Virus record (IMG/VR): IMGVR_UViG_3300046170_000287
Location: 1-64,000 of that record
Direction: 5' to 3' (one strand)
DNA: 64,000 nt
DNA from: a virus
Shown here: positions 3,875 through 17,576 of the stretch, one piece after another
Layout of the letters: every line of letters begins with the position of its first letter
Position numbering within the stretch: the first letter of the stretch is position 1
Translations under genes and position numbers: made by a program
Notes under the pieces: model-generated
Database searches by the model: none
What the model was told of the DNA's origin: nothing
The model's input: the letters and a program-made list of their open reading frames with translations, nothing else

Positions 3875-4131
3875 AATACAACGACTATGTCACCTGACTT
3901 TATAACGTGATAAGATTTTTTATCAACTTCTATTTTATGGCCAGCATGACGATCAAAGTATATAGTATCGTTTTTTTTAACGCCTGCTACTTCTTCACCC
4001 GCAGATACAACACTTGCTTTAACGTAGCGTATATCTTCTCTCTGGCTTTCTGCAAGAAGTAAACCACCATCTGTCTTAGTAGTCCCTTCTTTTTCTTTTA
4101 TTATAATTAAGTTTCTACCTATTGCCTTCAT
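3871..4131 (-). CDS. groES: Co-chaperonin GroES (Hsp10)
   Basis: The 86-aa product has a full GroES layout. It begins with MKAIGRNLIIIKEKEG. A mobile loop TKTDGGLLLAESQRED follows at about residues 17-34, then the barrel (VKASVVSAGEEVAGVKKND) and the C-terminal strand YHVIKSGDIVVVL. It caps the chaperonin ring and sets substrate release. The start lies inside the last codons of groEL (17-bp overlap), giving the order groEL-groES, the reverse of the usual bacterial operon. A phage-encoded lid probably tunes folding of the capsid protein. Confidence 0.95.
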   Translation of the reverse strand: MKAIGRNLIIIKEKEGTTKTDGGLLLAESQREDIRYVKASVVSAGEEVAGVKKNDTIYFDRHAGHKIEVDKKSYHVIKSGDIVVVL

Positions 4132-5674
4132 CTATTCTTAAATTATTGATTACACAATCAGTAGATAATATTGTTGTTGCTACAGAAGCTGCATTTTGAA
4201 GAGCGCTCTTGGTGACTAGTAGTGGATCTATAATACCCGACTTAATCATATTTACCATTTTTCCTGTAACCACATTGTAGCCTTGTCCTTTTCTTGTTGG
4301 TGTCTTTCTATCAGATTCTAGACCTGCGTTTTCAAGTATAGTTTTAAAAGGGGCTTTTATAGCTTCTAATAAAACTGTTTCACCTATTGACTTAGCTGTT
4401 ATATTTGTTGCAGCGTTTAATAGAGCAATACCACCACCAGGAACAATCCCTTCTTTGATAGCAGCTTTAGTAGCACAGATAGCATCTTCTACCCTATCTG
4501 TTTTTTCTTTTAATTCTATTTCTGAATTAGCACCTACTTTAACTATTGCTATTTTAGCAGACAGCATGGCTAATCTTTTTTCTAGCTTTATAACCTTATT
4601 AGGATTTTTTTCTTTAACTAGTTCTTTTTTAAGAGTTTTTATTACATCATTAATCTCTTCGTTTGCCTCTTCTATTTGAAGAACAGTGTCTTGATGCGAT
4701 GTGACACTTTTTAAGCATGTACCTAAATGATCAACTTGTATCATTTCCATGTCATCACCTAGGTCTTCGTTTATAATAGTAGCGCCAGTAAGCAATGAAA
4801 GGTCTTCGAGCACTTGTTGTTTACTAACTCCGTAAGTAGGTGCGTTTATAACATTTACTTTTATATTACCCTTCATTTTATTCATAGCTAGAGCTGATAA
4901 AACACCTTGTTCTAAATCGCCTATAATAAGCAAAGGTTTGTTGTTTTTTATTACGTACTCTAGCACAGACTGAATCTGTCGTATTGTATCAACTGGTGAT
5001 TCTAATAAAAGCACTAATGGCTTTTCAAGTTCAGCAGTTTTAGTCGCTTTGTTAGTTATAAAGTGTGAGTTAGTTATACCTTTATCGTATTGAACCCCAT
5101 CTACAACTTCTACAGATGTTACACCATCTGAAGCTGTTTCCATCATTACAACACCTGTGTTATCTACAGCTCTAAAAGCATCAGCTATTATTTTACCTAG
5201 CTTTGGTTCATTGTTAGTTGATATAGTAGCTATTTGATCTATCATGCTACCTTGAACATCAACAGTAAGTAGTTTCAAATAATTAACTACTTTTTTAACA
5301 GCTAAATTAATACCGTCTTTCAACTCTCTTGAGTTTGTTTTATCTACTACTTTATAAGCTTCTAGTAATATAGCATGCGCTAATACTGTAGCTGTTGTAG
5401 TTCCATCACCGGCTTCTTGTACTGTTTTACGCGCTGCTTCTTTTAAAAGTGTAGCACCCATATTTTCTACTGGATCTCGCAGAATTATTGAATCTGCTAC
5501 TGTTACACCATCTTTAGTTATAACTGGTCTTCCAGTGTGATCTTCTAGCATAACGCATTTACCGCTAGCTCCAAGAGTGGAGCTAACAGCTTGCGTTAGT
5601 TTTTCAATTCCTTTAAATACATTATCTCTAGCATTATTACCAAAGTTAAGATTCTTGACTATTAAGTCTGACAT
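4115..5674 (-). CDS. groEL: Chaperonin GroEL (Hsp60)
   Basis: The 519-aa product is recognisable from end to end. The equatorial domain has ATP-binding GDGTTTATVLA near residues 86-96, and the apical domain contains DGVTSVEVVDGVQYDKG. The C-terminal equatorial part has IVPGGGIALLNAA. It is slightly shorter than bacterial GroEL (about 545) and lacks a GGM-repeat tail. Its leader on the minus strand (TTTAATATAATATAATATG) resembles those of the scaffold-like and 271-aa head genes. Phage GroEL usually assists capsid folding; with its own GroES this is a complete chaperonin pair. Confidence 0.96.
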   Translation of the reverse strand: MSDLIVKNLNFGNNARDNVFKGIEKLTQAVSSTLGASGKCVMLEDHTGRPVITKDGVTVADSIILRDPVENMGATLLKEAARKTVQEAGDGTTTATVLAHAILLEAYKVVDKTNSRELKDGINLAVKKVVNYLKLLTVDVQGSMIDQIATISTNNEPKLGKIIADAFRAVDNTGVVMMETASDGVTSVEVVDGVQYDKGITNSHFITNKATKTAELEKPLVLLLESPVDTIRQIQSVLEYVIKNNKPLLIIGDLEQGVLSALAMNKMKGNIKVNVINAPTYGVSKQQVLEDLSLLTGATIINEDLGDDMEMIQVDHLGTCLKSVTSHQDTVLQIEEANEEINDVIKTLKKELVKEKNPNKVIKLEKRLAMLSAKIAIVKVGANSEIELKEKTDRVEDAICATKAAIKEGIVPGGGIALLNAATNITAKSIGETVLLEAIKAPFKTILENAGLESDRKTPTRKGQGYNVVTGKMVNMIKSGIIDPLLVTKSALQNAASVATTILSTDCVINNLRIDEGNR

Positions 5675-13540: not shown

Positions 13541-13578
13541 ACAAACAAAATACAATATCCTTTGGATAATATAATAAA
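13541..13578 (+). promoter_or_regulatory. 38-nt promoter-like element, copy 2
   Basis: ACAAACAAAATACAA, 8 variable bases, GGATAATATAATAAA. The ATG of the next gene follows 26 bp later. Blocks and spacing are the same as in copies 3, 4 and 5; TATAAT inside the second block is a plausible -7/-10 hexamer. Confidence 0.65.
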
Positions 13579-15582: not shown

Positions 15583-15771
15583 ATGTATTGCAAATGTGGT
15601 CAAACCGTACACCCAGTACGGATCGAGTTAGGTTATAGAACGTGTGTTCAGTGTTCAACAACTAAAACGTACAGTTATGTGCCTATCATCGAGCACAAGA
15701 CAGGTAATACAATACAAATCGTCAGCCAAGAGGTGAGCGCTTCAGTTCACAGAGCTTGGCGGCGTAAATAG
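15583..15771 (+). CDS. Small zinc-ribbon protein, DksA/TraR-type finger (62 aa)
   Basis: The ATG at 15583 is chosen; an in-frame TTG at 15559 lies within the promoter-like element. Residues 3-24 read YCKCGQ..VRIELGYRTCVQC, i.e. two Cys pairs about 17 residues apart around a PVRIE helix, like the C-terminal finger of DksA/TraR proteins. The coiled coil of DksA is missing. DksA-type proteins bind the RNA polymerase secondary channel; a finger-only protein might do so or simply bind nucleic acid. It directly precedes the RNA loci. Confidence 0.6.
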   Translation: MYCKCGQTVHPVRIELGYRTCVQCSTTKTYSYVPIIEHKTGNTIQIVSQEVSASVHRAWRRK

Positions 15772-15823
15772 CGTGAAGAACAACCACAGCTTGAAATAGT
15801 AGTGCACGGTTGTGAAGCGTAAA

Positions 15824-15988
15824 TAGCTAGACGAGTAGCTTAATTAGGTTAAAGTAGGCGAGAACAGACACCTTGTAACTTTAACACATAAGTGAATTGC
15901 TAGCGGGAACTAGGTCAGGTTAGAGACGCAAGACAGGCTTCGCGACTCAGGCTACCGACGGGTATGAGGTTCGAATCCTCACTAGTTA
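15824..15988 (+). ncRNA. Structured RNA with canonical T arm and tRNA-like acceptor (unassigned)
   Basis: The 3' part has a perfect T arm (TGAGG, loop TTCGAAT, CCTCA, 15965-15981) followed by CTAGTTA (15982-15988). That strand pairs with TAGCTAG at 15824-15830 with one G-U pair, or less well with GAACTAG at 15907. Inside are an 8-bp helix GTTAAAGT/ACTTTAAC (15848-15855 with 15878-15885), a D-arm-like string (TAGCTTAATTAGGTTAAAG), a hairpin CGCAAG/CTTcGCG (15927-15944) and TACC-GACG-GGTA (15953-15964). No normal tRNA with a 7-nt anticodon loop can be folded. A disrupted tRNA, an insert-bearing tRNA or a novel tRNA-like RNA are options. Confidence 0.45.
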
Positions 15989-15992
15989 CAAA

Positions 15993-16071
15993 GGGGGTGA
16001 TATGGTTTTGACGTAGTAAAAAGCCTGCAAAGGAATTACTACGGAAGACAGTTCGATTCTGTCCACCTCCA
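15993..16071 (+). ncRNA. tmRNA-like RNA: tRNA-like domain without visible mRNA-like region
   Basis: A 79-nt RNA. The acceptor stem GGGGGTG (15993-15999) pairs fully with CACCTCC (16064-16070), including G3-U70, with discriminator A73: the alanine identity set. There is no D stem; instead the string ATATGGTTTTGACG matches the D-loop region of tmRNAs (TGG-x-TT-x-GACG). The T arm is GACAG-TTCGATT-CTGTC (16047-16063), preceded by CGGA as in tmRNA. Between lies a perfect 8-bp helix CGTAGTAA/TTACTACG, in the tmRNA H2 position, closed by a 16-nt loop containing CCT-GCAA-AGG. No tag ORF or pseudoknots fit. CTA follows position 73, so CCA must be added. Confidence 0.7.
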
Positions 16072-16092
16072 CTAATTTTAAAACAAGAACAA

Positions 16093-17503: not shown

Positions 17504-17576
17504 TGACTCATGGTGTAATTGGTAACACGTCTGGTTTTGGTCCAGAAGAGTTCAGGTTCGAGACCTGATGAGTCAA
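17504..17576 (+). tRNA. tRNA-Gln (anticodon TTG)
   Basis: A complete 73-nt cloverleaf. Acceptor TGACTCA/TGAGTCA, D arm GTGTAATTGGTAACAC, anticodon arm TCTGG-TTTTGGT-CCAGA with anticodon TTG, T arm TCAGG-TTCGAGA-CCTGA, discriminator A at 17576. CCA is not encoded. It reads CAA, a frequent codon in this A-rich genome. Its 3' flank CTAATTTTAAAA matches that of the tmRNA-like RNA. Confidence 0.95.

Follow-up and report, generated by a model that had tools for sequence, protein, structure and literature searches.

A tmRNA-like RNA locus in a podovirus-like phage

The window analysed here is the whole stretch of 64,000 nucleotides that forms positions 1 to 64,000 of IMG/VR record IMGVR_UViG_3300046170_000287. 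Its terminase shares 63% identity with the enzyme of uncultured podovirus MW202828 and 43% with Flavobacterium phage terminases, with further matches in Cellulophaga, Tenacibaculum and Maribacter phages, and on these matches we regard the record as a Flavobacteriia podovirus-like phage; relatives of its primase are encoded at more than 340 places in IMG/VR. A GroEL homologue is also encoded in the window (4115-5674, minus strand; phrog_5725, E = 6e-132). The motif GGATAATATAATAA, which is likely a phage promoter, recurs at 13564, 14308, 15561 and 16578, on the plus strand only and 5' of genes, and one copy stands before the small gene and RNA locus listed below. In this locus a hairpin module, the modules M1 and M2 and a tRNA-like domain (TLD) of tmRNA follow one another within 15771-16071.

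15583-15771, plus strand: gene for a 62-aa Cys-rich small protein; constant upstream neighbour of the RNA locus (26 loci)
15771-15820, plus strand: hairpin module beside the stop of the upstream gene; similar sequence in relatives, fold alone not significant
15827-15903, plus strand: module M1, CTAGACGAGTAGCTTAATTAG-[exchangeable hairpin]-ACATAAGTGAATTGCTAG; fold z = −3.1
15908-15989, plus strand: module M2, tRNA-like, AACTAG...TTCGAAT...CTAGTT with a variable middle; directly 5' of the TLD, recurs in relatives
15993-16071, plus strand: tagless tmRNA, TLD only, from G1 to discriminator A73; RF00023 64.7 bits, model R1 98.4 bits
15993-15999, plus strand: acceptor stem, 5' strand GGGGGTG, G3 with U70; paired in 39/39 homologues, G3-U70 invariant
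16000-16011, plus strand: D-loop analogue ATATGGTTTTGA without a D stem; contains GG and, by alignment, the positions matching U17 and G19 of E. coli tmRNA (contact positions from PMC8363625)
16012-16019, plus strand: H2 helix, 5' strand; two-sided changes at 7/8 pairs
16020-16035, plus strand: cap AAAGCC-TGCAA-AGGAA, an internal loop plus a small hairpin; the same in unrelated phages and Streptomyces phages
16036-16043, plus strand: H2 helix, 3' strand; covariation
16044-16046, plus strand: connector GAA; the base two positions 5' of the T stem corresponds to E. coli A334 (SmpB pocket)
16047-16063, plus strand: T arm, 5 bp and 7-nt loop; paired in 39/39, compensatory changes
16064-16070, plus strand: acceptor stem, 3' strand CACCTCC, including U70 (alignment)
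16072-16074, plus strand: encoded trailer CTA; CCA absent from the DNA

All the features listed for this element in an earlier sequence-only reading were present, namely the GGGGGTG/CACCTCC acceptor with G3-U70 and A73, the segment TGGTTTTGACG without a D stem, a perfect 5-bp T arm preceded by CGGA, and H2. The 8-bp H2 helix (CGTAGTAA/TTACTACG) is closed by the 16 nt AAAGCCTGCAAAGGAA, which fold into a further 3-bp stem, and the whole element folds into acceptor, H2, cap and T arm with a minimum free energy of −28.7 kcal/mol (z = −3.5). The Rfam tmRNA model RF00023 aligned to 15993-16074 over model positions 1-374 (64.7 bits, E = 6e-23, gathering cut-off 47 bits), skipping about 300 model positions that make up the mRNA-like and pseudoknot region, in agreement with the earlier view of an alanine-type TLD of tmRNA without an mRNA-like region. 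Where tmRNA has its mRNA-like domain and pseudoknots, the element has only the cap: an mRNA-like domain with a tag reading frame is absent (16 nt versus ~300 model positions), and there is no room for pseudoknots. A covariance model built in this analysis, R1, scored the element at 98.4 bits. Of the two tmRNA searches that the earlier reading had proposed, the Rfam covariance model was thus positive, while ARAGORN reported a tRNA-Gln at 17504 of the window and nothing at 15993-16071; the element also lacks the D stem and anticodon arm of a canonical tRNA. The mitochondrial model RF02544 was not among the Rfam matches listed, in which overlapping matches of the same clan are suppressed. The 3' end is encoded as ACTA, so that CCA must come after transcription, and no intrinsic terminators were found around the element.

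The possibility that the element is a processing product of a full tmRNA encoded elsewhere was not borne out, as the 64,642-base record contains no other tmRNA match. The record is linear in the IMG/VR classification and therefore possibly incomplete; a full-length tmRNA was not found in relatives of 58-71 kb either. A permuted, two-piece tmRNA with a remote coding piece was likewise rejected, the only candidate being a 22-bit match that overlaps the element itself, with no second match in the record.

The tagless RNA forms a covarying family in unrelated phages

A pattern scan that left H2 unspecified recovered 54 viral contigs or stretches with 39 distinct sequences; such searches detect only near-pattern sequences, and most family members lie on metagenomic contigs. 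Every one of the 39 had the 7-bp acceptor, the T arm, H2 and the cap AAAGCC-N-GGAA or a close variant. Dozens of phages carry this tagless RNA, which is 76-80 nt long and has an 8-bp H2 closed by the small AAAGCC..GGAA cap. In an alignment of 15 sequences, 96.5% of H2 cells were paired compared to 72.7% after shuffling, both strands had changed at 7 of the 8 pairs, and covariation scored 0.64 (0.18 shuffled, ≤0.14 in slid controls; 0/500 shuffles). Pair counts were taken from alignment A2 and a direct structural parse, as the MAFFT alignment A1 displaced the 5' ends of sequences with short D loops. The compensatory H2 changes for which the sequence-only reading had looked to relatives were thus found, and such strong covariation among homologues rules out chance. 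Together with the invariance of G3-U70 described below, it also excludes that reading's option of a remnant. A related proposal sees the element either as a decayed tmRNA or as an attP site that copies host ssrA and serves integration. Although tmRNA genes are integration sites of many phages, an integrase (PF00589) was encoded in only 1 of 34 records and was absent from the window's own, and compensatory changes have preserved both the 5' half and H2, unlike what an attP core or a remnant would show; integration was accordingly rejected, and we regard this whole proposal as highly improbable.

Searching ~85,000 bacterial and archaeal genomes with the tagless pattern yielded a single marginal match, which makes this essentially a phage RNA. 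That match (L244:150-222, Acidobacteria bacterium AH-259-O06, JALLOM010000361.1) sits next to a small Cys-rich ORF on a contig of 3.3 kb and is possibly prophage sequence. Among phages, the RNA was found after an exonuclease gene, in methylase/terminase and portal/capsid gaps and within tRNA clusters, and these differing neighbourhoods indicate that the same RNA has settled in unrelated phages. A direct BLAST search of cultured phages with the window element returned T-arm fragments only. Eight cultured Streptomyces phages (BRock, LuckySocke, GiJojo, Tomas, Naboo, Riptide, Alone3 and pSt2308) carry the RNA in their tRNA arrays, unannotated in 8/8, with R1 scores of 52-76 bits and a cap, AAAGCCGCACGCGGA, almost identical to that of the marine phages. 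ARAGORN was blind to the RNA at the other loci tested as well as in the window, which accounts for its lack of annotation. In GiJojo (PP725410.1, L323:301-381), a predicted hypothetical CDS, gp44, overlies the tagless tmRNA and probably does not represent a true gene.

The alanine identity pair and SmpB-contact positions are retained

Because our first pattern fixed U70, G3-U70 was tested separately. No matches were obtained when the scan was repeated with position 70 set to A, C or G. In 44 clade sequences located through primase or M1, with no constraint on pair 3-70, this pair was G-U in 44/44, while the adjacent pair 4-69 was C-G in 25, A-U in 11, G-C in 7 and G-U in 1; an acceptor-free scan likewise gave G3-U70 in 27/27. 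The Streptomyces phages have U-A at 4-69 and retain G3-U70 in 8/8, so that overall pair 4-69 takes all four Watson-Crick types beside an invariant G3-U70. The conservation of this pair suggested by the earlier reading therefore holds in both unconstrained searches. The A73 discriminator and the elbow without a D stem are present, as in tmRNA. In E. coli tmRNA, A15, U17 and A334 form a pocket for Trp122 of SmpB, and G19 is required for SmpB binding (PMC8363625). The A334 equivalent was A in all 44 clade sequences, and the G19 equivalent was present throughout; the latter was imposed by most patterns, yet it is kept in the Streptomyces sequences found by BLAST. No SmpB gene was encoded in 31 phage records, and host SmpB would therefore be needed.

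These observations bear on a passive-sponge account, in which the RNA does no more than titrate SmpB (or AlaRS) and neither charging nor entry into the ribosome matters. According to PMC4131195, which cites Mao et al. 2009, a molecule like the TLD-only RNA of mycobacteriophage DS6A strongly inhibits E. coli tmRNA whether chargeable or not, perhaps through titration of SmpB, as this account would expect. An invariant G3-U70 would be unexpected if charging were irrelevant, particularly beside a pair that takes four Watson-Crick forms. The strictly retained alanine identity pair thus argues against simple titration, at the level of sequence, and we consider this account improbable.

Exchangeable payloads and a mosaic of neighbouring modules

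The region upstream of the TLD (15771-15990) is a mosaic of structured RNA modules, each self-contained (M1, M2, M3, M4 and others), found at the same position in related loci (L003, L008, L015, L028, L043, L046, L061 and others), and these modules are shuffled, swapped and nested between related phages. M1 occurs once per genome in 70 viral contigs, with ~55 distinct inserts. Downstream of the 62-aa Cys-rich gene, for which no Pfam family was found, clade relatives carry other TLD classes with GGGCGTG/CACGTCC or GGGAGTG/CACTTCC acceptors, the D-loop AAATGGTTAG or ATAAGGTAAG, and a hairpin of 20-130 nt instead of the standard cap. M1 inserts matched a TLD payload in 29 of 55 cases, compared to 0-2 in 20 shuffled-insert sets, and one payload was found in different TLD backbones; in L061, the TLD contains M3, which in turn contains a further hairpin module. 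Rfam searches of the upstream modules at E values up to 10 returned only tmRNA families and a meaningless snoRNA match, and the mosaic may be more novel than the element itself. We tentatively suggest that in this clade of Flavobacteriia podoviruses the alanine-type TLD could serve as a platform with interchangeable H2 modules shared with the hypervariable nested locus, forming a combinatorial RNA counter-host system that would present payloads via SmpB and stalled ribosomes or to other host targets.

A further explanation is that the tRNA-like fold is mainly a processing or stability signal (RNase P, 3'-end punctuation) for the operon RNA or its modules, or an alanine donor outside translation. 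The TLD does lie at the 3' end of the clade's module array, and in other phages the RNA directly abuts ORFs. Punctuation, however, would need neither G3-U70 nor the SmpB positions nor a conserved cap, and other phages have the same RNA without modules, and we judge this explanation unlikely.

Relation to known tmRNAs

The sequence-only reading knew of no phage RNA of this form, but a precedent exists: DS6A is tabulated as "TLD only" by Hudson et al. 2014 (PMC4131195), and in a 2025 tmRNA database paper (PMC11915505), which likewise cites Mao et al. 2009, it represents phages among the CDS-less tmRNAs, alongside mitochondrial examples and two from plastids. The DS6A RNA (tmRNA Website 11587) resembles our element, by description only, in being phage-encoded and barely more than a TLD, without a tag frame. 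It is a single reported case, whereas the element belongs to a large family whose sequences covary and which extends across Flavobacteriia podoviruses, Streptomyces phages and numerous unassigned phages. A TLD-only phage tmRNA is thus already known as a kind; this search turned up no earlier description of its breadth, conserved cap or payload variants.

With bacterial tmRNA (RF00023) the element shares the acceptor with G3-U70 and A73, the elbow without a D stem, CGGA, the T arm and the start of H2; unlike it, the element has no tag frame and no pseudoknots, its 8-bp H2 being closed by a short conserved cap. The tag frame is similarly absent from jakobid and oomycete mitochondrial tmRNAs and from the ~65-bp plastid tmRNA of Mallomonadaceae, but these are organellar, use nuclear SmpB at least in mitochondria, and are not known to have the capped H2. 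Other phage tmRNAs (Cellulophaga Calle_1, Stenotrophomonas DLP_6, Xanthomonas XacN1 and others) have the same tRNA-like domain as the element and, unlike it, match full-length or permuted two-piece models. Unannotated permuted tmRNAs above the Rfam cut-off were observed in five cultured phages, namely Alcaligenes phage QDWS595, Bordetella phage PHB04, Xanthomonas phage Rb1, DLP_6 and XacN1. In Tunturiibacter phage Tunturi_4 (PP885687.1, 43282-44513), a permuted two-piece tmRNA adjoins an annotated RF-1 domain release factor of ArfB-like size, and the two form a possible phage ribosome-rescue pair.

A proposed charged competitor of host tmRNA

Judged by its sequence, the element encodes a tag-less phage tmRNA that keeps the TLD fold, the AlaRS identity pair, the T arm and the SmpB-contact positions. 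We propose, with a probability of roughly 0.55, that its product is an alanine-charged, SmpB-binding competitor of host tmRNA that suppresses tagging during infection. The RNA would be cut out of an operon transcript by RNase P and 3' processing, receive CCA and be charged with alanine; bound by host SmpB and EF-Tu, it would enter stalled ribosomes and displace host tmRNA from them. As there is no resume codon, tagging would be impossible, and trans-translation tagging would thereby be suppressed during infection. Competition with host tmRNA would be the minimal consequence, and the nascent peptide might afterwards be released, extended with alanine or trapped. This proposal is consistent with the end-to-end RF00023 match, the H2 covariation, the invariant G3-U70 and the retained SmpB-contact positions, with the presence of the same, essentially phage-specific RNA in unrelated neighbourhoods and the need for host SmpB, and with the strong inhibition of tmRNA by a DS6A-like molecule as summarised in PMC4131195. 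That inhibition, as reported there, was independent of charging, which counts against the proposal and means that the DS6A precedent alone leaves the strict G3-U70 unexplained. It is this strictness that points to a charged, ribosome-entering competitor rather than a sponge, and the element probably acts as an active competitor, beyond merely soaking up SmpB.

A second reading, which also fits the sequence data, is tag-less rescue of the kind supposed to occur with mitochondrial tmRNA: together with SmpB, the charged RNA would take over the nascent chain, possibly adding one or more alanines, and free ribosomes on cut mRNAs, leaving a product not marked for degradation and giving the phage recycled ribosomes. 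The features for charging and ribosome entry are all retained, mitochondrial and some plastid tmRNAs without a tag are thought to aid incomplete mRNAs (PMC11915505), and a TLD fragment with SmpB gives template-free poly-alanine in vitro (Shimizu and Ueda 2006, as cited in PMC3929946). On the other hand, peptide release would need a separate hydrolase, since a stop codon is absent, and the TLD-only molecule described in PMC4131195 was inhibitory to tmRNA in E. coli. We hold such rescue to be possible but clearly less probable than competition with host tmRNA.

Implications

With these findings, the one-phage curiosity of DS6A becomes a widespread phage RNA family, whose spread suggests that interference with host ribosome rescue, or its takeover, is common among phages. 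The exchangeable H2 payloads and nested module mosaic further suggest that phage RNAs can evolve by domain shuffling, as phage proteins do. That host stalled-ribosome rescue is a phage target is a testable prediction, and as the family includes cultured Streptomyces phages, G3-U70 mutants and SmpB mutants can be tested now.
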